NCBI RefSeq assembly: GCF_026167665.1
Contig: NZ_CP098740.1
Location: 2,914,001-2,978,000, forward strand
Direction of reading: 5' to 3'
DNA length: 64,000 nucleotides
Source of the DNA: Streptomyces drozdowiczii
GTDB taxonomy: Bacteria > Actinomycetota > Actinomycetes > Streptomycetales > Streptomycetaceae
This document shows, in pieces, positions 2,842 to 45,548 of the stretch (positions are counted from its first letter, which is position 1; each line of letters begins with the position of its first letter). The position numbers and the translations under genes are program-made. The notes below the pieces were generated by a model that saw only the letters and a program-made list of their open reading frames with translations, was not told the origin of the DNA and did not search any database.

Positions 2842-3300
2842 ATGGAAAACCGCCTCAAGGACAAGAACGGCGCCCACCCCGACGTCTGGACCGCCGTCCG
2901 CCACCTCCACCAGGCGATTGCCTCCGGCGGCGTCGACCCCAAGATCCTCGCCCTCGTCCACCTGCGCGTCAGCCAGATCAACGGCTGCTCGGCCTGCGTC
3001 TTCGCCGCCGTCGCCGCCGGCAAGAAGGCCGGTGACACCGACGAGCGCCTCCACACCGTCGCGGCCTGGCGCGAAGCGCCCTTCTATACGGACGGCGAGC
3101 GCGCCGCGCTGGCCCTCGCCGAGGGCGCCACCCGCCTCCAGGACGGCGCCCCCGGCGTCACCGACGAAATCTGGGACGAGGTCAGCGCGCAATTCACCGA
3201 GCAGCAGATCGGCGCCCTCAACCTCGAAATCGCCCTGACCAACTTTTTCAACCGCATCAACCGCACGGTCAAGGAACCCGCCGGGAAGACGTGGGGCTGA
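2842..3300 (+). CDS. Carboxymuconolactone decarboxylase/AhpD-family protein
   Basis: 152 aa, the usual length of small AhpD-like proteins. The conserved core VSQINGCSACVF carries the CxxC pair expected of alkylhydroperoxidase-type members, which act as thiol-dependent peroxidases; this suggests an oxidative or electrophile stress role. The ATG at 2842 follows GAAGGAG. It is transcribed divergently from the SnoaL-tailed ECF sigma gene and has a matching promoter element at 2761-2787, so it is the probable target of that sigma factor. Its 3' end overlaps the convergent MarR gene by 32 bp. The substrate is unknown. Confidence 0.9.
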   Translation: MENRLKDKNGAHPDVWTAVRHLHQAIASGGVDPKILALVHLRVSQINGCSACVFAAVAAGKKAGDTDERLHTVAAWREAPFYTDGERAALALAEGATRLQDGAPGVTDEIWDEVSAQFTEQQIGALNLEIALTNFFNRINRTVKEPAGKTWG

Positions 3301-3820
3301 CGCCCGCGTGCTCCGCCTCCAGCACGGACGTCAAGGACGGCGGGTTCGGCTCGGTCCAGGTTCGTCCGGCCCCGCTGATCCGGCGCAGCATGTCCAGGAA
3401 GCGGACCCGCTCGTCGAGGGTCAACGGGGCCAGGAGTTCCGCGTTGGCGCGGTCGCCCGCTGCCGTGCACTCCTCCAGGCGGCGGCGCCCCGCCTCCGTC
3501 ACGCTGACCGCGTTCTTGCGGCGGTCGTTCGGGTCCGGGGCGCGGACGATCAGGGACTCCTCCTGAAGGTCGTTCAGGATGCCGACCAGGTCCTTCGGGT
3601 CGAGGGCGACCGCGCGGCCCAGGTCCGCCTGGGCGACGGGCTCCAAGTCCTCCACCGCCGCCAGCACTACGTGGTGCCACATCTTCATGCCGTGCGCGGC
3701 CAGCGCATCCGCCACCAGGGACCGGCCCCGCGCCGCCGCCCGGCCCAGGAGCCAGCTCGGGAGCGGGCGGATGCGGCTCGGGGCCGTCGTCGCTGCTGCC
3801 TTGTCTGCCATGCCCCGCAT
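3269..3820 (-). CDS. MarR-family transcriptional regulator
   Basis: 183 aa. A winged-helix DNA-binding core lies at about 50-115 (LGRAVALDPKDLVGILNDLQEESLIVR, then the wing DPNDRRKNAVSVT), flanked by dimerisation helices. It diverges from a zinc-type quinone oxidoreductase. Two identical-architecture palindromes lie in the 88-bp gap, so it most likely represses both itself and the oxidoreductase. Start codons at 3820 and 3811 (MADKAAA) are both possible; neither has a strong ribosome site, and the first operator ends only 15 bp upstream of 3820. The 3' end overlaps the convergent AhpD-like gene. Confidence 0.88.
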   Translation of the reverse strand: MRGMADKAAATTAPSRIRPLPSWLLGRAAARGRSLVADALAAHGMKMWHHVVLAAVEDLEPVAQADLGRAVALDPKDLVGILNDLQEESLIVRAPDPNDRRKNAVSVTEAGRRRLEECTAAGDRANAELLAPLTLDERVRFLDMLRRISGAGRTWTEPNPPSLTSVLEAEHAGVSPTSSRRVP

Positions 3821-3908: not shown

Positions 3909-4835
3909 ATGCGGCGCATTCGGTACGAACACAGCGGCGGGCCCGAGGTTTTGTTCGAGGAGGACGTGCCCGTTCCCACACCCGGCCCCGGCGAACTCCT
4001 CGTCAAGGTCGAGGCAGTCGGCATCACCCTCCCAGTGGTGCGGAAGGTGCGCGAAGGCCGGGAGCCGATCCCGCTCGGCGGCGAGGTCGCCGGGGAGGTG
4101 GTGACGCTCGGGGACGGGGTGAGCGCGCACGCCGTCGGCGACCGGGTCACCGGCCTCTGCTTCGGGCACGGGTACGCCGAATACGCCCTGCTCCACCAGG
4201 CCATGGCGTCCGCCGTCCCCGCCGGGGCCACCGCCCAGGACGCCGTCGCGCTCGTCCGGAGCGGGGTCGTCGCGCTCGGGGCGCTGGAGTCCGCGCGGCC
4301 CGAGAAGGGCGAAGCCGTGCTCGTCACGGCCGCCGCGAGCGGCGTCGGGCACCTGGCGCTCCAGCTCGCCCGGCTCCGGGGCGCGTCCCGGGTCGTGGCG
4401 GCCGTGGGCGATCCGGCGAAGGCGGACTTCGTACGGTCGCTCGGGGCCGACGAGGTGGTGACGTACACCGGCGAGAGCTGGGGCGAGCCCTGCGACATCG
4501 TCCTGGACGCGGTCGGCGGCGACCTCCTCCCCCGGGCCGTCCGGGCCACCGCCCCCGGTGGCCGACTCGTCGCCTACAGCTCGGGCGGCGGCACGATCGA
4601 GGCGTACGACCTGCTCGTCGGCGGCAAGTCGGTCATCGGCTTCCAGGTGGCCCACATCGCCCGGACGCAGCCCGCACGGTACGCCGGCTGGATCGCGGAG
4701 CTGTGGGCGCTGCACGCCGAGGGCAGCCTGCGCCCCGCCGTCCACGCGGCCCACCCGCTGGCCGACGCGGCCCTCGCCCACGCGACGATCGAGAACCGGG
4801 CCAACCGGGGCAAGGTCGTCCTCACCGCATCCTGA
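3909..4835 (+). CDS. Zinc-type alcohol dehydrogenase family NAD(P)H:quinone oxidoreductase
   Basis: 308 aa medium-chain dehydrogenase/reductase. A GroES-like N-terminal domain (about 25-125: GGEVAGEVVTLG, then VGDRVTG) is followed by a Rossmann domain (about 130-260) with the nucleotide-binding stretch VTAAASGVGHLALQLA. The structural and catalytic zinc cysteines of true alcohol dehydrogenases are absent, as in quinone oxidoreductases/zeta-crystallins. It probably reduces quinones or other electrophiles with NADPH. The ATG at 3909 follows GGAGG. Divergent pairing with a MarR regulator and twin operators points to induction by the substrate or a related electrophile. Confidence 0.9.
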   Translation: MRRIRYEHSGGPEVLFEEDVPVPTPGPGELLVKVEAVGITLPVVRKVREGREPIPLGGEVAGEVVTLGDGVSAHAVGDRVTGLCFGHGYAEYALLHQAMASAVPAGATAQDAVALVRSGVVALGALESARPEKGEAVLVTAAASGVGHLALQLARLRGASRVVAAVGDPAKADFVRSLGADEVVTYTGESWGEPCDIVLDAVGGDLLPRAVRATAPGGRLVAYSSGGGTIEAYDLLVGGKSVIGFQVAHIARTQPARYAGWIAELWALHAEGSLRPAVHAAHPLADAALAHATIENRANRGKVVLTAS

Positions 4836-4852
4836 CCACCCGAGCGCCGCGC

Positions 4853-5386
4853 CTACTCCGCGTGCTCCTTCAGGAACGCGCCCGCGTGGGCCGCCGCCTC
4901 CTCCTTCGTCGGGAAGCCCCCCGTACCGTCCGCCGCACTATGCGTGCCGTCGGCGCCCAGGCCCGACCAGCACCAGCCCCCCGGCACCTCTTCCCAACTC
5001 AACTCAGCCCTGCCGCCGAACAGTTCCAGCTTGCTCGCCTCGCGCCGCTTCCCCACCGCATCCGGCCACTTCTTGCGGGCACCCTGCCGCGTGATCCCCC
5101 AGGCGGCCCCCAGCCGCTCGTAGTTCGCGCCGTAGGAACCGGCCGTCCGGGCGGCTATCGCGGTCAGCCGCTTGACCTCCTCGTCGACCACCTTCCAAGC
5201 GGCCAGAACGGACAGCGACACCTCCACCGGCTCCGCCGCCCACATCCGGTCCGGCGGCAGCCCCGTCGCCCGCGCCTGAAGCGCCTCGGCGACCGGATTC
5301 AGCGCCTCCAGCAGCGCCGCGTCCAGCGCCACGCGATCCACGTCCCGGCCCGTCGCCGCGTTCTCGATCTCCCCAGAGTTCCCCAT
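4853..5386 (-). CDS. Small conserved protein with helix-turn-helix-like segment
   Basis: 177 aa, not assigned to a named family. The middle region (about 80-110: YERLGAAWGITRQGARKKWP) reads as an HTH. The C-terminal part (FGGRAELSWEEVPGGWCWSG, then KEEAAAHAGAFLKEH) is a compact tryptophan-rich module that I do not recognise. The ATG at 5386 lies only a few bases downstream of a plausible -10 (TAAAGT, 5400-5395), so the mRNA may be leaderless. A palindromic operator covers the -35 region, so an autoregulatory DNA-binding role is likely but unproven. It is convergent with the oxidoreductase, 17 bp away. Confidence 0.82.
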   Translation of the reverse strand: MGNSGEIENAATGRDVDRVALDAALLEALNPVAEALQARATGLPPDRMWAAEPVEVSLSVLAAWKVVDEEVKRLTAIAARTAGSYGANYERLGAAWGITRQGARKKWPDAVGKRREASKLELFGGRAELSWEEVPGGWCWSGLGADGTHSAADGTGGFPTKEEAAAHAGAFLKEHAE

Positions 5387-5394
5387 GCCTCGTA

Positions 5395-5438
5395 ACTTTA
5401 GTTGTCGAGATCCGTTTCGACAACCCTTGTTGTCGAAA
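5395..5438. promoter_or_regulatory. GTTGTCGA palindrome cluster over the promoter of the 4853-5386 gene
   Basis: Three half-sites: GTTGTCGA (5401-5408), TTTCGACAAC (5415-5424) and GTTGTCGAAA (5429-5438). The last two form a perfect 10-bp inverted repeat with a 4-base spacer. On the minus strand TTGTCG (5423-5418), 17 bases, TAAAGT (5400-5395) makes a credible promoter whose -35 box lies inside the repeat. Transcription would start next to the ATG at 5386. The binding protein is probably the HTH gene product itself (inference). Confidence 0.65.
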
Positions 5439-5517
5439 TTCTTTTGCCCCTACCCCACGCCCCCGCCCCGCCACAACTCCGGCCGGGCTCCGGAAACCAG
5501 CACCTACGCTTGCTGCC

Positions 5518-6324
5518 ATGCCCATCCCACCCGCATATGCCCTCGTCGCCACCGACCTGGACGGCACCCTCTTGCGCGGCGACGACACCGTCAGCCCCCG
5601 CACCCGCGCCTCGCTCGCCCTGGCCCGCGCGGCCGGCGCCCGCCATCTCGTCGTCACCGGGCGGCCCGTGCCCGGCGTGCGGGAGCTGCTGGACGGGCTC
5701 GGGTACGAGGGGCTGGCCGTCTGCGGGCAGGGCACGCAGGTGTACGACGCCGGGGCGCGGCGCACCGTGCGGGCCGTCACGCTCGACCGGGAGGCGGCCG
5801 GGACCGCGCTCGGGAAGATCGAGGCCCAGGTGGGCCAGGTCTTCGCCGCCGTGGACCAGGACGGGGCCGAGGGGCGCACGCTCATCGAGCCCGGCTACCG
5901 GCTGCCGCACGCCACGCTCCCCGCACAGCGCACCCGGCACCGGGACGAGCTGTGGGCCGAGCCCGTGATCAAGGTGCTCATCCGCCACCCCGAGCTGAGC
6001 GACGAGGCGCTGACCGCCGAGGCCCGCGCGGTCGTCGGGGACCTCGCCACGGTGACGCACTCCGGGCCCGGGACCGTCGAGCTCCAGCCGTACGGCATCG
6101 ACAAGGGCGCCGGGATCGCGCTCGCCGCCGAGGAGCTGGGCATCGACCCGCGCACGGCGATCGCCTTCGGGGACATGCCCAACGACCTGCCGATGTTCCG
6201 CAGCTGCGGCTACGGCGTCGCCATGGGCAACGCCCACCCGGAGCTGCGCGCGGCGGCCGACGAGGTGACGTTCTCCAACGAGGAGGACGGGATAGCGGTC
6301 GTGCTGGAACGCCTCTACGGCTGA
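5518..6324 (+). CDS. HAD-family (Cof-type) hydrolase
   Basis: 268 aa cytosolic phosphatase of the Cof subfamily. Motif I is DLDGT with catalytic Asp13 and Asp15. Motif IV is FGDMPNDLPMF near the C-terminus, with the MGNAHPEL and ADEVTFSNEEDGIA signatures typical of Cof proteins. The type IIB cap lies between. Such enzymes usually hydrolyse sugar phosphates or flavin/pyridoxal phosphates; the substrate cannot be predicted here. The start at 5518 places the HAD motif at the usual distance from the N-terminus. It ends 4 bp from the convergent TetR gene. Confidence 0.92.
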   Translation: MPIPPAYALVATDLDGTLLRGDDTVSPRTRASLALARAAGARHLVVTGRPVPGVRELLDGLGYEGLAVCGQGTQVYDAGARRTVRAVTLDREAAGTALGKIEAQVGQVFAAVDQDGAEGRTLIEPGYRLPHATLPAQRTRHRDELWAEPVIKVLIRHPELSDEALTAEARAVVGDLATVTHSGPGTVELQPYGIDKGAGIALAAEELGIDPRTAIAFGDMPNDLPMFRSCGYGVAMGNAHPELRAAADEVTFSNEEDGIAVVLERLYG

Positions 6325-6328
6325 GGGT

Positions 6329-6916
6329 TCAGAGCGTCGCCCCCAGCGCCCGCAGTACGTGGTCCACCAGCTTCCCCACGTCCTCCGCGTCCTGCATCGG
6401 CTTGCGCAGCACATGGCGGTAGTACAGCGGGCCGTAGAGCATCTCCACCGCGAGGTCCAGGTCCGCGTCCGGCGGGATCTGGCCCCGGTCCTGGGCGCTC
6501 CGCAGCCGGCCGACCGCCTCCCGGAAGCGGGGGTCGATGAGCTGTGTGCGAACCGTTTCGGCCAGTTGGTCGTCGTGGTGGAGTTCGGAGAGGATGCCCG
6601 CGTAGGCCGGGCCGAACGGGGGTACGGCGAGGACGTTCACCGCGCCCGTGAGGTGGGTACGCAGATCCTTCGCGATGTCACCGGTGTCCACGAACGGGGT
6701 CGCCGAGACCAGCATCTCCGTGAAGGCTTCCAGCAGCACCGCGCTCTTCGACGGCCACCAGCGGTAGATCGTCTTCTTGCTCACGCCCGCCCGCGCCGCG
6801 ATCGCCTCGACCGTGACCCGCCCGTAGCCCCTCTCCGTACAGAGATCGAGGGCGGCTTGCAGGGTCGCCCTGCGTGAGCTCTCGCTCCTGCGCAGTGAAC
6901 TCGGCGATGTGTTCAT
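6329..6916 (-). CDS. TetR-family transcriptional regulator
   Basis: 195 aa. The N-terminal HTH (about 15-60) has the TetR signature LCTERGYGRVTVEAIAARAGVSKKTIYRWWPSK. The C-terminal ligand domain (about 85-190) is of the TetR_C type seen in Streptomyces efflux regulators. No diverging target gene is close: the ABC exporter begins on the same strand beyond a 190-bp gap and reads towards this gene. A short palindrome (6934-6946) sits just upstream of the start and may be an autoregulatory operator. The ligand is unknown. Confidence 0.9.
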   Translation of the reverse strand: MNTSPSSLRRSESSRRATLQAALDLCTERGYGRVTVEAIAARAGVSKKTIYRWWPSKSAVLLEAFTEMLVSATPFVDTGDIAKDLRTHLTGAVNVLAVPPFGPAYAGILSELHHDDQLAETVRTQLIDPRFREAVGRLRSAQDRGQIPPDADLDLAVEMLYGPLYYRHVLRKPMQDAEDVGKLVDHVLRALGATL

Positions 6917-6933
6917 TCGGTGAGCATAGGACT

Positions 6934-6946
6934 GTTTGAGCCAAAC
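6934..6946. promoter_or_regulatory. Short palindrome upstream of the TetR gene
   Basis: GTTTG-AGC-CAAAC, 18 bp upstream of the TetR start at 6916. It is AT-rich compared with its surroundings. It could be the regulator's own operator, but a 5-bp arm can arise by chance. I see nothing else identifiable between 6947 and 7108. Confidence 0.35.
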
Positions 6947-7108
6947 CTTATTGACAGTGAGTCGCTACAAGTCGAACAATGCTCTGGCGGAAACGGAACG
7001 TAGCGTGTCGGCTCGTTCCTTCTGTTTTCGCGCCGTTCGTGCCGTTCGTGCCGCGACGAGCCGATCGGGGGACGGCTCGCCGGCCGACGGTACGGGCGCG
7101 GATCCCGG

Positions 7109-7996
7109 TCAGGCCGTGATGTCCTTCGTGGTGAACCGGGCCCAGGCCGCGGAGCCGAACACCGCCACGTACAGCGCCTGGAGTTCGAGATTCCTGAGCA
7201 GCTCGTCCCAGTAGACGGGCTCCCGCAGCAGGTCCGCGAAGGACAGCCAGTAGTGCGGGAAGAGGTAGGGGTGGACCCCGCTCAGCTGGGGGATGGTGTC
7301 CACGATCTGGACGGTGATCAGCACTCCGACCGTCGCCGCCATGGCCGCGATGCCGCTGTTCGTGAGGGTCGAGACGAACAGGCCGAGTGCCGCGAAGCCG
7401 GTCAGGGACGCCGCCACGAAGACCGCGACGACCCCCGCGCGTACCAGCCCCTCACCGAAGCCGATCGTCGTCCCCGAGATCGTCGTGACCTCGCCCACCG
7501 GGAACAGCAGCGCGCCCACCGCCAGCGCGGAGGCGGCCACGACGAGCGTGGCGACCAGGCAGAAGCCGAGCGTCGCGGCGTACTTGGCGAGCAGCAGCCG
7601 CGTCCGGCCGGCCGGGGCGACCAGCAGATAGCGCAGGGTGCCCGCGTTGGCCTCGCCCGCGACCGCGTCGCCCGCGATGACGCCGACCGCCATCGGCAGG
7701 AAGACCGGGAGCGTCGCGGCGAGCGCGGCGAAGACCAGGAAGAGCCCGTTGTTGGTCACCTGGGACAGGAAGGCCGGCCCGCCGCCCCCTCCCCCGGCCC
7801 CCGCCGAGGAGCCGTCCGCCGTCTCGATGCGCACGGCGATCCCGATCAGGACGGGCACGGCGGCCAGCACACCGAGCAGCGCGACGGTGCGCCAGCGGCG
7901 CAGGGTGGTGGCGAACTCGGAGCGGAGGATGCCCAGGGTCCAAAGGGGGTTGCGCCCAGCAGGCACGGTGGCGGGTGCGGCTTCAGCCTGCGACAT
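7109..7996 (-). CDS. ABC-2 type transporter permease
   Basis: 295 aa integral membrane protein with about six hydrophobic segments (for example TVALLGVLAAVPVLIGIAV, the block FLPMAVGVIAGDAVAGEA and VGVLITVQIVDTI). The stretch VAGEANAGTLRYLL is the EGTL-like signature of ABC-2 permeases. It pairs with the ATPase immediately upstream, whose gene it overlaps by 14 bp, so the two are translationally coupled. Together they probably form an exporter with a 2+2 arrangement; the substrate is unknown. The gene order LolA-like protein, ATPase, permease on one strand suggests a shared envelope function. Confidence 0.9.
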   Translation of the reverse strand: MSQAEAAPATVPAGRNPLWTLGILRSEFATTLRRWRTVALLGVLAAVPVLIGIAVRIETADGSSAGAGGGGGGPAFLSQVTNNGLFLVFAALAATLPVFLPMAVGVIAGDAVAGEANAGTLRYLLVAPAGRTRLLLAKYAATLGFCLVATLVVAASALAVGALLFPVGEVTTISGTTIGFGEGLVRAGVVAVFVAASLTGFAALGLFVSTLTNSGIAAMAATVGVLITVQIVDTIPQLSGVHPYLFPHYWLSFADLLREPVYWDELLRNLELQALYVAVFGSAAWARFTTKDITA

Positions 7997-41043: not shown

Positions 41044-41745
41044 TCAGTCGCGCACACCCCGGTGCAGGGCCACCACGCCGCCCGTGAGGTTGCGCCAGGC
41101 GACCTGGGACCAGCCGGCCTGCTGGAGCTTCTTCGCCAGGCCGGGCTGGTCGGGCCAGGCGCGGATGGATTCGGCGAGGTAGACGTAGGCGTCGGGGTTG
41201 GAGGAGACCGCGCGGGCCACGGGGGGCAGGGCGCGCATCAGGTACTCGATGTAGACGGTGCGGAACGGGGTCCAGACGGGCTGCGAGAACTCGCAGATGA
41301 CGACCCGGCCGCCCGGCTTGGTGACCCGGTACAGCTCGCGCAGCGCCGCGTCCGTGTCCTGGACGTTGCGCAGGCCGAAGGAGATGGTCACCGCGTCGAA
41401 GGTCTCGTCGCGGAAGGGGAGTTTCGTGGCGTCGCCGGCGGTGAAGGGCAGCCAGGCGTGCCGCTTCTTGCCCTCGCGGAGCATGCCGATCGAGAAGTCG
41501 CACGGCACGACGTACGCACCGGTCGCGGCGAACGGCAGCGAGGACGTCGCCGTGCCGGCCGCCAGGTCGAGGACCTTCTCGGCGGGCCGGGCGTTCACCG
41601 CCTTGGCGACCGCCTTGCGCCACACCCGGTCCTGGCCGAGCGAGAGCACGTCGTTGGTCAGGTCGTAGTTCGCCGCCACGCCGTCGAACATCGAGGCGAC
41701 TTCGTGCGGCTGCTTGTCCAGGGAGGCTCGGGTCACGCCCTCCAT
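41044..41745 (-). CDS. menG: Demethylmenaquinone methyltransferase
   Basis: 233 aa UbiE/MenG-family SAM-dependent methyltransferase that performs the last step of menaquinone synthesis. It shows the UbiE signatures [19 protein letters not shown] and [31 protein letters not shown], split by the SAM-binding motif [13 protein letters not shown]. In futalosine-pathway organisms it acts on the product formed after MqnA-D and prenylation. ATG at 41745 and GTG at 41736 are both possible starts; GGAGGG lies too close to the GTG, so I keep the ATG. Confidence 0.93.
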
Positions 41746-41870
41746 TCAAGCAGCCCGGTCCGCGCGGCCTCGCGGGGGACGCCCCGGGCGGAATTCCGCT
41801 TCAACCTTTTCCGTCCGGCGGCACTCAGTAGTCACGAAGAGACCTCCGCAGAGAACAGGGAAGGGGGCAG

Positions 41871-42380
41871 ATGTTCACGGGAGCCAGCCGGGGTGCCGAC
41901 GGCTTCGAGGAATTCGCCCGCGCCGGCCAGCACCGCCTCTACCGCACCGCGTACCTGCTCTGCGGCGACGCCGACGCCGCGCGCGACCTGACGCAGACGA
42001 CGCTGGCCAAGCTGTTCCAGCACTGGCACCGGGTGCGCGCCGCCGACCACCCGGACGCCTACGCCCGGACCGTGCTCACCCGCACCTACATCGCCGAGCG
42101 CCGCCGCCGGCTGCGCGACCTCCTCGCCCACACGCCGATCGCCGCGCCCGCCCCGGCCGTGGGCCCCGAGCTGACCGTCACGCTGCTCGCGGCCCTCGCC
42201 GAACTGCCGCCCCGCGCGCGGGCGATGGTCGTCCTGCGCTACTGGGAGGACCTGAGCGTGGAGACCGTCGCGGAGCTGCTGCGGTGCAGCCCGTCCACCG
42301 TCAAGAGCCAGTGCTCGCGCTCACTGGCCACGCTGCGCGCCCGCCTGGGCGACGCGCACCTCTACACCGCCCGAGGCTGA
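41871..42380 (+). CDS. SigE-family ECF RNA polymerase sigma factor
   Basis: 169 aa. Region 2 is FARAGQHRLYRTAYLLCGDADAARDLTQTTLAKLF and region 4 is LPPRARAMVVLRYWEDLSVETVAELLRCSPSTVKSQCSRSL, each broken only by normal loops. This matches the SigE family of actinobacterial ECF factors that are often encoded just before a single-pass membrane protein. The ATG at 41871 follows AAGGGGG. The membrane protein gene starts 11 bp after its stop and two secreted metalloprotease-like genes follow. CAACC at 41802-41806 could be part of its own promoter, but this is weak. Confidence 0.92.
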   Translation: MFTGASRGADGFEEFARAGQHRLYRTAYLLCGDADAARDLTQTTLAKLFQHWHRVRAADHPDAYARTVLTRTYIAERRRRLRDLLAHTPIAAPAPAVGPELTVTLLAALAELPPRARAMVVLRYWEDLSVETVAELLRCSPSTVKSQCSRSLATLRARLGDAHLYTARG

Positions 42381-42391
42381 GGAGTTACGCC

Positions 42392-43288
42392 GTGTACGTG
42401 TTCATGGACCCCGCTCCGGGCGACGAGCCCGGCCGCGACGACGACGAGTTGCTGGTCCGGACCGCCATGGAGCGGGCCACCGGCGGGGCGCCGCCGCTGC
42501 CCGATCTGGTCCCCGGCGCCCTGGTCCAGGGCCGCCGCCGCCGGGCCCGGGCCCGCGCCGCGATCGGGGCGACGGCGACCGCGATCGTCGGCCTGGGGAT
42601 CTTCGGCGCCGCGCTGCCGGTGTGGGGCGGGGGCGGGGAGCCGGTACGCGAGTGGTCGGCGGCCTCGTCGGCGACCGCGGTCCCGACGCCCCTGGACACC
42701 TCCGACCCATGGCTCCGGCTCCCCGTGCACGTCGAGCCGAGCCCCGGCGAGACCTCCATGGCTGATCTGCCGGAGCGCGAGTACTCGCGGCAGGGGGTCT
42801 TCCAGAACGAGGCGGCGGGGGTGCTCGAAGCGCTCCTGCCCAAGGCGCTCGCCCCGGTCCGGCCGGTCGACATCGCCGTCAGCCGGTACCAGGGCGGGGT
42901 GGACAGCCCGGTCTTCCCGATCTCGTTCTCCGTCCGCCCGCTGGCCACGGGCAAGGCGGCCCGGGCGGACACCCCCTGCCTCGACGGCGCGGTGAAGGAC
43001 CTCCGGTGCGACGAGGTCACGCTGCCGGGAGGGATCAAGGCCCAGGCGATCACGGCGGCCGGGAACGCCAAGGGGGGCAAGAAGGTCACCGGGGTCACCG
43101 TGCGTTTCAGGTACGGGCACAGCCGCGTCACGCTCACCGTGGGGGGTGACTACGACGCCATGGTGTCGGCACCGGTCACCGCCGACCAACTGGTGGCCGT
43201 CGCCGGGGACCCGAAGGTCATCGAAATGGTTGCTTATGCGGACAAACGTCCGATGGAAGCGAAGGAGGGCTCTGTCCGTGGGGGCTGA
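42392..43288 (+). CDS. Single-pass membrane protein, possible anti-sigma or sensor partner
   Basis: 298 aa, no family recognised. A cytosolic N-terminus (about 1-60, acidic then arginine-rich RRRRARARA) leads to one transmembrane helix (about 62-82: ATATAIVGLGIFGAALPVW) and a ~215-residue outer domain with two cysteines (DTPCLDGAVKDLRCDE). This topology fits regulators encoded next to SigE-family sigma factors, but no zinc anti-sigma motif is seen. GTG at 42392 follows GAGGAG. The gene overlaps the next by 11 bp, so sigma factor, membrane protein and DUF3152 protein form one transcription unit. Confidence 0.82.
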   Translation: MYVFMDPAPGDEPGRDDDELLVRTAMERATGGAPPLPDLVPGALVQGRRRRARARAAIGATATAIVGLGIFGAALPVWGGGGEPVREWSAASSATAVPTPLDTSDPWLRLPVHVEPSPGETSMADLPEREYSRQGVFQNEAAGVLEALLPKALAPVRPVDIAVSRYQGGVDSPVFPISFSVRPLATGKAARADTPCLDGAVKDLRCDEVTLPGGIKAQAITAAGNAKGGKKVTGVTVRFRYGHSRVTLTVGGDYDAMVSAPVTADQLVAVAGDPKVIEMVAYADKRPMEAKEGSVRGG

Positions 43289-44120
43289 GGGCACGCGGGG
43301 GCGGCACGGCGGAGCGGGACGCGGACGAAGACGCGCGAGACGACGCAGCCGCATACGCATACTCACCGCCGTCGCCGTACCGGCGGCGCTGATCGGCGTG
43401 GTGGTGGTCCTCGCACCCCGCTGGGCGGGCGGTGACGGGGCCCCGGCGGCCGCCGCCGCATCGAAGCCGTCGCCCGTCGCCGCGTCCCGCTCCCCCACCC
43501 CTTCCGCGAAGGCCGGTCGCGGTGCGAAGCCGTCGCCCTCCGTGAAGCCGAGCCCCACCCGTATCCCCGCCTCCGGCCCCGGCACGTTCACGACCGCCCG
43601 CGCCGACACCTCGTCCTCCGGGCGGTACGCGTACCGCGTCGAGGTCGAGGACGGCTCCGGCGTCGATCCGGAGGAGGCCGCCGACCGGATCGCCCGCATC
43701 CTCGCCGCGCCGCGCGGCTGGGCGCAGGGCGGGACGCGCACGTTCCACCGGGTGGCCTCCGGTCCGGCCGGGCTGGTCGTCCGCATCGCGACGGCGGCCA
43801 CCACGGACCGGATCTGCGGACAGGGCGGGATGAACACGCACGGCGAGGTCAACTGCCGGATCGGCGAGAAGGTGATGGTCAACCTCAAGCGCTGGCAGAC
43901 CGGTTCGCCCGAGTTCGACGGCCCGCTGGACGACTACCGGGCCCTGATCATCAACCACGAGGTCGGCCACTGGCTCGGCCACGGCCACGAGACCTGCCCC
44001 GGCAGGGGCCGCCCCGCCCCCGCGATGATGCAGCAGATCTACGGACTCAAGGGCTGCGTCGCCAACGCCTGGCCGTACGACGAAAACGGGGCATACCTGG
44101 GCGGCCCCTCGGTGCCGTAA
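43278..44120 (+). CDS. DUF3152 protein with metzincin-type zinc motif (copy 1)
   Basis: 280 aa. An arginine-rich start, one transmembrane helix (about 27-47) and a Pro/Ser/Ala linker (about 52-105) precede the DUF3152 domain (about 115-280). The domain contains HEVGHWLGHGH at 227-237, an exact HExxHxxGxxH metzincin zinc-binding motif, followed by a candidate Met-turn (PAPAMMQQ, about 246-253). Four cysteines (180, 193, 240, 260) could form two disulfides. It is likely a membrane-anchored extracellular metalloprotease; activity is inferred. GTG at 43278 follows AAGGAGGG and overlaps the previous gene by 11 bp. Confidence 0.88.
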   Translation: MGAEGTRGRHGGAGRGRRRARRRSRIRILTAVAVPAALIGVVVVLAPRWAGGDGAPAAAAASKPSPVAASRSPTPSAKAGRGAKPSPSVKPSPTRIPASGPGTFTTARADTSSSGRYAYRVEVEDGSGVDPEEAADRIARILAAPRGWAQGGTRTFHRVASGPAGLVVRIATAATTDRICGQGGMNTHGEVNCRIGEKVMVNLKRWQTGSPEFDGPLDDYRALIINHEVGHWLGHGHETCPGRGRPAPAMMQQIYGLKGCVANAWPYDENGAYLGGPSVP

Positions 44121-44210
44121 CGATTCTTCAGGGAAGTGGACTGAACCAATCACCCCGATCACCGGTCCTACAGCGGGGGACGGATCACCGATCGCTGGGG
44201 AGGGTTTCGG

Positions 44211-44885
44211 ATGCCCGGAGGGAAAGGGCGCCGGGGGGAGAGCGGCCGGGGCAGGCTGCTCGCATGGGTTGTCGTCCCCGTCGTGCTGGCGGCCGCCGCC
44301 GTCGTCGGCCTCCGCTGGAACGACGCGCGCGGCCCCGCACCCGCCGCCTTCACCGTGGCCCGCGCCGCCGCGACGGACACCGGTACGGGGAACGCCTACC
44401 GGGTGGAGGTGGAGGACGGCGCCGGGCTCGACGCGGACCGGACGGCCTCCGTCGTCGCACGCATCCTGGCCGCGCCCCGGGGCTGGTCGCACCACGGGGA
44501 GCACAGGTTCCGCCAGGTGGCGAAGGGCCAGGCGGGGCTGGTCATCCGGATCGCGACCCCGGAGACCACCGACCGCGTCTGCGGCGCGAGCGGGCTCGAC
44601 ACGCACGGCGAGGTCAACTGCCGCGTCGGTACGGTGGTGATGGTCAACCTGAAGCGCTGGCAGACGGGTTCGCCGGAGTTCAACGGGCCGCTGAGCGAGT
44701 ACCGGGCGCTGATCATCAACCACGAGGTCGGCCACTGGCTGGGCCACGGCCACGAGACCTGCCCCGGCAAGGGCCGACCGGCCCCCGCGATGATGCAGCA
44801 GATCGACGGGCTGAAGGGCTGCGTCGCCAACGCCTGGCCGTACGACTCCGAGGGGCGTTACCTCGGCGGCCCCTCGGTGCCGTAG
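44211..44885 (+). CDS. DUF3152 protein with metzincin-type zinc motif (copy 2)
   Basis: 224 aa paralogue of the preceding gene. It has a membrane helix at about 17-35, a shorter linker, and the DUF3152 domain from about 60. The zinc motif HEVGHWLGHGH lies at 171-181 and the C-terminal block is almost identical to copy 1. All four domain cysteines are kept. The ATG at 44211 has GGGGAGGG upstream. The 90-bp gap after copy 1 contains two GATCACCG repeats and may hold a separate promoter. Recent tandem duplication is likely. It converges with the imidazolonepropionase-like gene, 3 bp apart. Confidence 0.88.
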   Translation: MPGGKGRRGESGRGRLLAWVVVPVVLAAAAVVGLRWNDARGPAPAAFTVARAAATDTGTGNAYRVEVEDGAGLDADRTASVVARILAAPRGWSHHGEHRFRQVAKGQAGLVIRIATPETTDRVCGASGLDTHGEVNCRVGTVVMVNLKRWQTGSPEFNGPLSEYRALIINHEVGHWLGHGHETCPGKGRPAPAMMQQIDGLKGCVANAWPYDSEGRYLGGPSVP

Positions 44886-44888
44886 GCG

Positions 44889-45548
44889 CTAACGGCCCCG
44901 GTACACCAGCCGCCCGCCCGCGATCGTCGCTACGCAGCTGACCGCGCCCGCCGCGAGCAGCGCTGCCTCGTCCGGCGCGTCGAAGGCCGCGAGGTCCGCG
45001 CGGCCCCCGGCGGCGAGCGGCGCCGCCGTCGCCTCGGCCACCGCGCCCGCCCCGGCCAGCGGGTCGAGCCGGGGGCCGTCGGCGGTGGCCCGCCCGGACG
45101 GGGCGGCGGACGCGCCGAGGACCGCCAGCCCGGACCGCCGGACCGCCGTGAGCAGCGCGGGCGGGGCCCCGGGGCCGGCCGCCACCGCCGTCGTGCCGTG
45201 CCGCAGCATCCGGTGCAGCCCGCGCCGCACGCTGCCCGCGCGCCAGGTCTCCTCGGGGCCCAGCGCGTCGAGCGCGCCGCCGGTCAGGGGCTCGGTGCCC
45301 AGCGCGTCCGCCTCGCGGGGGTCGGGGAAGTACCACTCCTCCAGGAGCCGGACCGCGTCCCGCTGCACCAGGCCCGGGGTGAGGACGCCCGGCCAGCGCC
45401 GGACACGGGCGCCGGGGTGGGCGGCGGCCACCTCCTCGTACGGCCCGAAGGCCGCGACCACCGCGTCCCGCACGGCCACCGCACCGCCGGGCACGGATGC
45501 GCGGCCGCCGCCCGGCAGGAGCAGGGCGGCGGCGTGAATCGTCAGCAA
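44889..45548 (-). CDS. Amidohydrolase-like protein (imidazolonepropionase-like domain), probably non-catalytic
   Basis: 219 aa, about half the length of a true amidohydrolase. It keeps the edge strands of the composite beta-sandwich (VAVRDAVVAAFGPYEEV, then GVLTPGLVQ at the front; AGAVSCVATIAGGRLVYRGR at the back) and GTTAVAAGP, but the metal-binding HxH is replaced (GLVQRD). It is probably a degenerate member. It sits 7 bp downstream of mqnC on the same strand, a linkage worth noting for the futalosine pathway although no role is known. Confidence 0.75.
   Translation of the reverse strand: MLTIHAAALLLPGGGRASVPGGAVAVRDAVVAAFGPYEEVAAAHPGARVRRWPGVLTPGLVQRDAVRLLEEWYFPDPREADALGTEPLTGGALDALGPEETWRAGSVRRGLHRMLRHGTTAVAAGPGAPPALLTAVRRSGLAVLGASAAPSGRATADGPRLDPLAGAGAVAEATAAPLAAGGRADLAAFDAPDEAALLAAGAVSCVATIAGGRLVYRGR

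Follow-up and report, generated by a model that had tools for sequence, protein, structure and literature searches.

The stretch analysed here comprises 64,000 nt of the Streptomyces drozdowiczii genome (contig NZ_CP098740.1, positions 2,914,001 to 2,978,000 of the forward strand) and is referred to below as the window. It contains a unit of four genes, i.e. a SigE-family sigma factor of the extracytoplasmic function (ECF) type (SIG), a single-pass membrane protein (MEM) and two proteins of the DUF3152 family (DUF1 and DUF2), preceded by a predicted promoter. Gene starts were set by inspection and from the listing of open reading frames (ORFs), that is, from sequence only. The features are the following (TM, transmembrane segment):

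41800..41826, + strand: predicted ECF-type promoter TTCAACCTTT-N14-CTC before SIG (-35 at 41800-41809, -10-like CTC at 41824-41826)
41871..42380, + strand: SIG, SigE-family ECF sigma factor, 169 aa (TIGR02983, PF08281, PF04542, PDB ECF sigma chains)
42392..43288, + strand: MEM, membrane protein with a single TM, candidate anti-sigma factor and sensor (TM prediction, alignment of 70 sequences, structural model, gene order)
43278..44120, + strand: DUF1, DUF3152 protein 1, 280 aa, TM 28-46, predicted metzincin-like domain (PF11350)
43956..43988, + strand: predicted zinc-binding motif HEVGHWLGHGH of DUF3152 protein 1
44211..44885, + strand: DUF2, DUF3152 protein 2, 224 aa, TM 16-34, predicted metzincin-like domain beginning near residue 45
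44721..44753, + strand: predicted zinc-binding motif HEVGHWLGHGH of DUF3152 protein 2 (M194, which lies 13 residues past the third His, is the candidate for the Met-turn)

SIG scored 159.3 bits in the NCBIfam search, above the cut-off of 141.55 for TIGR02983 (SigE-fam_strep). The Pfam search returned PF08281 and PF04542, i.e. sigma regions 2 and 4 only, and ECF sigma chains were matched in the PDB (best E 2.3e-11). MEM starts with GTG at 42392, 11 nt past the SIG stop, DUF1 with GTG at 43278, 11 nt within the 3' end of MEM, and DUF2 with ATG at 44211, behind a 90-nt gap. DUF1 and DUF2 share 73% amino acid identity across the domain and 77% DNA identity over 300 nt. These data bear out the sequence-only reading of the same DNA, which had described a SigE-family sigma gene followed at 11 bp by a membrane protein that overlaps a DUF3152 gene, with a near-copy of the latter behind it.

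The DUF3152 domains and their metzincin-like features

Both proteins exceed the gathering cut-off of PF11350 (110.9 bits for DUF1 and 115.4 for DUF2 against 25.1), and the matches cover positions 24-177 and 15-174, respectively, of the 206 in the profile. The genome, a single contig of 7.39 Mb, contains four PF11350 matches. An exact HExxHxxGxxH motif with a candidate Met-turn had been noticed in the letters alone, and both proteins have the motif together with the Met-turn methionine, as metzincins do. We aligned 94 hits from 90 loci that had been fetched because they matched DUF3152. Wherever a row has a residue at the positions of the three His, the Glu and the Met of APxMxQQ, it is the same one, and because of this invariance the zinc motif is not a matter of chance. 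Some loci (L095-L101, L069, L077, L081 and L094) have HExxHxxGxxxH instead, with one residue extra before the last His and the other invariants kept; L095-L101 are one family with full-length PF11350 matches.

The sequence-only reading had proposed structure prediction as a check, and the predicted structure of the DUF3152 domain has the fold of a metzincin catalytic domain. Each of the two proteins has one predicted N-terminal TM, which would place the domain outside the cell. Judged by model and motif, the domain is likely to be a metzincin-like fold with a zinc-ligand pattern, and we predict zinc binding and peptide cleavage, i.e. protease activity. We know of no peptidase activity recorded for DUF3152. 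The resemblance is to matrix metalloproteases and bacterial karilysin: identity in structure alignments is 16-22%, and DUF3152 differs by four conserved Cys, an N-terminal anchor and a Met that lies 13 residues past the third His in APxMxQQ. Among the metzincins, matrix metalloproteases belong to family M10 (PMC3890501). The DUF3152 family includes Rv3207c of Mycobacterium tuberculosis (PMC3726780). The window proteins share PF11350 and, in the loci examined, the invariant residues with other members, whereas their matches end at position 174-177 of the 206-position profile and they are linked to signalling genes.

The predicted SIG promoter and the candidate anti-sigma factor

Orthologs of SIG (at least 64% identity) were looked for in 150 genomes of the genus; 22 were found in 21 of them. 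The pattern TCAACCTTT-N14-CTC occurs no more than 220 nt upstream of 21 of these 22 genes, with the full TTCAACCTTT in 20 of the 21, and it is conserved both with and without menG nearby; the ortholog lacking it is L064 (genome G120). The core CAACCTTT-N14-CTC also precedes SIG in all 27 named Streptomyces loci that were found through MEM. The -35 is of the AAC type before 21 of the 22 orthologs, but the -10 position has CTC, whereas a self-activated ECF promoter usually has AAC in -35 and CGT in -10 (PMC8103513).

The loose pattern TCAACCTTTN{12,15}CTC matched once in the window's own genome, at 41801 of the window (twice in the reversed control). In the scan of the 150 genomes it matched before the same 21 SIG genes, with 49 genomes matched overall. 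The core pattern gave 33 matches over the 21 SIG-positive genomes, 21 of them at SIG genes, and the remaining 12 are as many as the reversed control gave. In other words, there is no excess of strict sites elsewhere. This supports a self-activating SIG whose own operon would be the only strict target that stands out.

MEM has 298 aa, and the earlier description of it as single-pass agrees with the one TM predicted from hydropathy. The predicted layout, in which topology follows from hydropathy and charge only, is a cytosolic part (1-56), the TM (57-75) and an ectodomain (about 108-291). The cytosolic tail is short and basic, with two predicted helices of which the second extends into the TM. 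The tail (15-56) is slightly the best conserved part of MEM, with a mean frequency of the commonest residue of 0.73 against 0.71 for the TM and 0.65 for the ectodomain, and 7 of the 20 invariant positions lie within it. MEM directly follows SIG in 21 of the 22 orthologs (L160 has a weak tail match only, then the contig ends), and SIG is upstream of MEM in 27 of 27 named loci. The gap is 8-11 nt in 18 of the 21 pairs and 34, 60 and 122 nt in L058, L063 and L064.

Known pairs of a membrane-bound or short anti-sigma factor with its ECF partner are RseA-RpoE (class I), CnrY-CnrH (class II) and RsbN-BldN of Streptomyces venezuelae (class III). A gene adjoining that of the sigma factor, one TM and a basic cytosolic N-terminus, all seen or predicted for MEM, are what membrane-bound anti-sigma factors of anti-sigma domain (ASD) classes I-III have. 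The likeness to the three systems extends to a membrane partner next to the ECF sigma gene, AAC in -35 and self-activation (here predicted), and the two predicted helices of the tail resemble those described for CnrY (PMC7406223, PMC8103513). The differences are that MEM has no anti-sigma sequence match, that CTC replaces a CGT-type -10 and that the operon contains metzincin-like genes. The pairing itself is ordinary: by our own criteria, five of the eight loci of this genome that pass TIGR02983 encode a membrane protein with one TM after the sigma factor. We consider it distinctly unlikely that MEM is an activator, a scaffold or a stand-alone sensor and/or that the DUF3152 domains, as relatives of metzincins, only bind and lack protease activity. 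SIG and MEM are coupled in the way usual for ECF/anti-sigma pairs (PMC8103513), and the catalytic Glu, absent from CarG, is retained in the DUF3152 hits examined.

Linkage and separation of the SIG-MEM pair and DUF3152

The survey covered the 150 genomes and the 27 named loci (25 readable). The two sets overlap: at least L196, L199, L204 and L214 look like G116, G147, G070 and G079. Five loci (L154, L159 and L160 in the sample, L199 and L208 among the named) reach a contig end first and were not scored as lacking DUF3152. The family was matched in 145 of the 150 genomes and its short clade in 72, with 81 matches from which 60 regions were read. In the window the operon is flanked by a divergent menG on one side and by an amidohydrolase-like gene with mqnC on the other. 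Here menG and mqnC exceed their NCBIfam cut-offs. Other neighbours, for which NCBIfam gave no match, are labelled amidohydrolase-like and mqnA by presumption, and the labels of a kinase (STK) and a zinc-ribbon protein (ZNR) are likewise presumed.

SIG, MEM and DUF3152 occur together in 13 of the 150 genomes. A tandem DUF3152 pair after SIG and MEM was also seen in 7 of the 27 named loci and in G116 (L196 is probably the same genome). DUF3152 lies beside menG and/or mqnC in 26 regions, of which nine have SIG and MEM, one has a broken SIG, two run into a contig end and 14 are without the pair. SIG and MEM stand without an adjacent DUF3152 in six sampled loci, four at the menG/mqnC site (L155, L156, L158, L161) and two elsewhere (L157, L162). 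Among the readable named loci, DUF3152 is downstream in 12 and missing in 13. L207 (Streptomyces atratus) has two DUF3152 genes, one placed after menG and before SIG (2995-3672) and one after MEM. L206 lacks DUF3152 after SIG-MEM, and the space is taken by an opposite-strand ORF (6084-7763, - strand) with an HEYGH motif and no NCBIfam match. In a co-occurrence survey of the kind proposed earlier, a short-clade DUF3152 is present in 19 of 21 SIG-positive genomes against 53 of 129 others (kinship uncorrected). Adjacency is often missing, and both halves are separable.

This separability bears on the suggestion that the metalloproteases process MEM. In such a model the DUF3152 metzincins would be site-1 proteases that cut the MEM ectodomain and start the release of SIG, and the operon would form a positive feedback loop. 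In L037, L038 and the window, the first 4-11 nt of DUF3152 lie within the end of MEM (elsewhere gaps of 17-458 nt were called from rough starts), the ectodomains of both proteins are predicted to lie outside the membrane, L058, L063 and L064 have the three genes side by side in places where menG/mqnC are absent, and a DUF3152 gene located elsewhere in the genome, not beside SIG and MEM (G004, G054, G076, G143), leaves room for action at a distance. A site-1 protease would be kept with its anti-sigma substrate, yet the adjacent DUF3152 is often missing in both sampled and named loci, G070 has SIG and MEM with no short-clade DUF3152 match anywhere in its genome, and the 14 regions beside menG/mqnC keep DUF3152 without the pair. 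DegS/RseP-RseA is similar in having an ECF sigma factor with a membrane partner and proteases that work outside the membrane or within it (PMC8103513); there a serine protease makes the site-1 cut, whereas here the adjacency of DUF3152 to MEM is optional. We regard the model as improbable, and a need for the metalloproteases in MEM processing is not supported, as SIG+MEM and DUF3152 each persist without the other.

It is also unlikely that the genes are neighbours with no common job, i.e. that DUF3152 and a self-contained SIG-MEM pair both favour the menG-mqnC site and read-through is incidental. Either half does occur alone at that site, DUF3152 in the same 14 regions and the pair in the four loci named above. 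On the other hand, the three genes are together elsewhere in L058, L063 and L064, DUF1 starts within MEM, and in L043 and L048 the promoter persists directly ahead of DUF3152 after SIG and MEM have gone, which would be expected from a shared SIG-MEM-DUF3152 transcript. L091, where the DUF3152 gene is broken, has a promoter relic with two mismatches; at this tolerance 67 of 4000 random 1100-bp stretches of these loci matched, true SIG promoters included.

A tree of the DUF3152 sequences was built with a quick method, excluding L090, L091 and L093 (broken) and L122 (a fragment) and using five loci outside the short clade as outgroup. All but one of the 15 SIG-linked rows fall together in a set of 22 (SH-aLRT 85), which also holds the SIG-less L036, L044 and L045, the two relics L043 and L048, and L050, the third copy of the window's own genome. 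The pattern fits a single linkage of SIG to DUF3152 followed by losses. Because relatives have often retained just one of the two, the switch or the protease-like genes, DUF3152 looks like an optional output and not a required part of the switch.

The proposed module and its meaning

We consider it probable that the locus is a self-activating ECF module in one main operon, with MEM as the anti-sigma factor and the DUF3152 proteins as metzincin-like output. The cytosolic tail of MEM would hold SIG at the membrane while its ectodomain senses an envelope signal. The signal would free SIG for transcription from the promoter at 41800-41826, and the transcript would yield more SIG, more MEM and, via read-through, both DUF3152 proteins, which, anchored in the membrane, may cleave proteins of the cell wall or beyond it. 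This output would have been swapped in and out over evolution. The signalling module of the sequence-only reading is supported by the metzincin-like predicted fold, the N-terminal anchors and the conserved promoter that precedes the sigma gene at the head of the operon; a dependence of MEM on the proteases is not supported.

Several observations weigh against this proposal. MEM has no Pfam or NCBIfam match at E<=1 and no meaningful PDB sequence match, it matches no known anti-sigma family, and its tail was modelled at low confidence (block means of about 44-67). The loose promoter pattern also occurs in 29 of the 129 genomes without a SIG ortholog (G127 and G119 among them are the promoter-relic genomes), so that single sites mean little. 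The core pattern, which is looser still, matched twice in the window's own genome, the second site being at C1:481995-482019 (L225). A scan of 41700-45000 revealed neither terminator-like nor sigma-70-like sites, a result of low weight as shuffles expect only 0.6 and 0.1, and the 90-nt gap before DUF2 could house a promoter of another type. In G120 the three genes are present without the promoter, and its DUF3152 (L064) falls outside the sigma-linked set. The support of that set is under the starred level of the tool, and the set includes the unlinked L050. Finally, SIG and MEM must serve another use in the six sampled and 13 named loci without an adjacent DUF3152.

The short clade also adjoins two-component genes in 15 of the 60 regions: 11 have a response regulator and kinase of one type, L059 (on a short contig) has the regulator only, L060 has just a kinase-like gene, and a second type is found in L050 and L093. 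In the eleven (L057, L070, L071, L073, L080, L082, L084, L085, L087, L088 and L089) DUF3152 is divergent from the response regulator, the histidine kinase and a gene that resembles the lipoprotein-like gene (180 aa) of L085; in L073, L080 and L085 a gene of the subtilase (S8) type comes next. L050 (5004-8291; about 182.7-186.0 kb of C1 in the window's own genome) has an apparent response regulator-histidine kinase-VanZ-like-DUF3152 run. In L062 (about 4403-5516) the genes behind DUF3152 encode another ECF-like factor (40% to SIG) and a protein that has a single TM-like stretch. Because many of the regions are one inherited locus, the two-component linkage is a pattern and not a count of independent events. 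Taking together the present switch, the ECF pair of L062, the run of L050 and the divergent two-component system of the eleven regions, we offer only as a tentative possibility that the short clade consists of membrane-anchored proteases similar to matrix metalloproteases that were repeatedly wired to unrelated envelope signalling systems, as surface-protease output or as tuners of the sensor.

No described system of this arrangement was found in the literature searched (open-licence papers only), in agreement with the earlier reading. The module is likely to be of the ECF/anti-sigma type and new by its likely metzincin output. Since this ECF circuit has a single conserved promoter and other strict sites are not in excess, its signal, regulon and substrate can be tested directly. 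For a family with no known function, present in nearly all sampled genomes of the genus as well as in M. tuberculosis (PMC3726780), the analysis points to a likely enzyme class, that of metzincin-like surface proteases.
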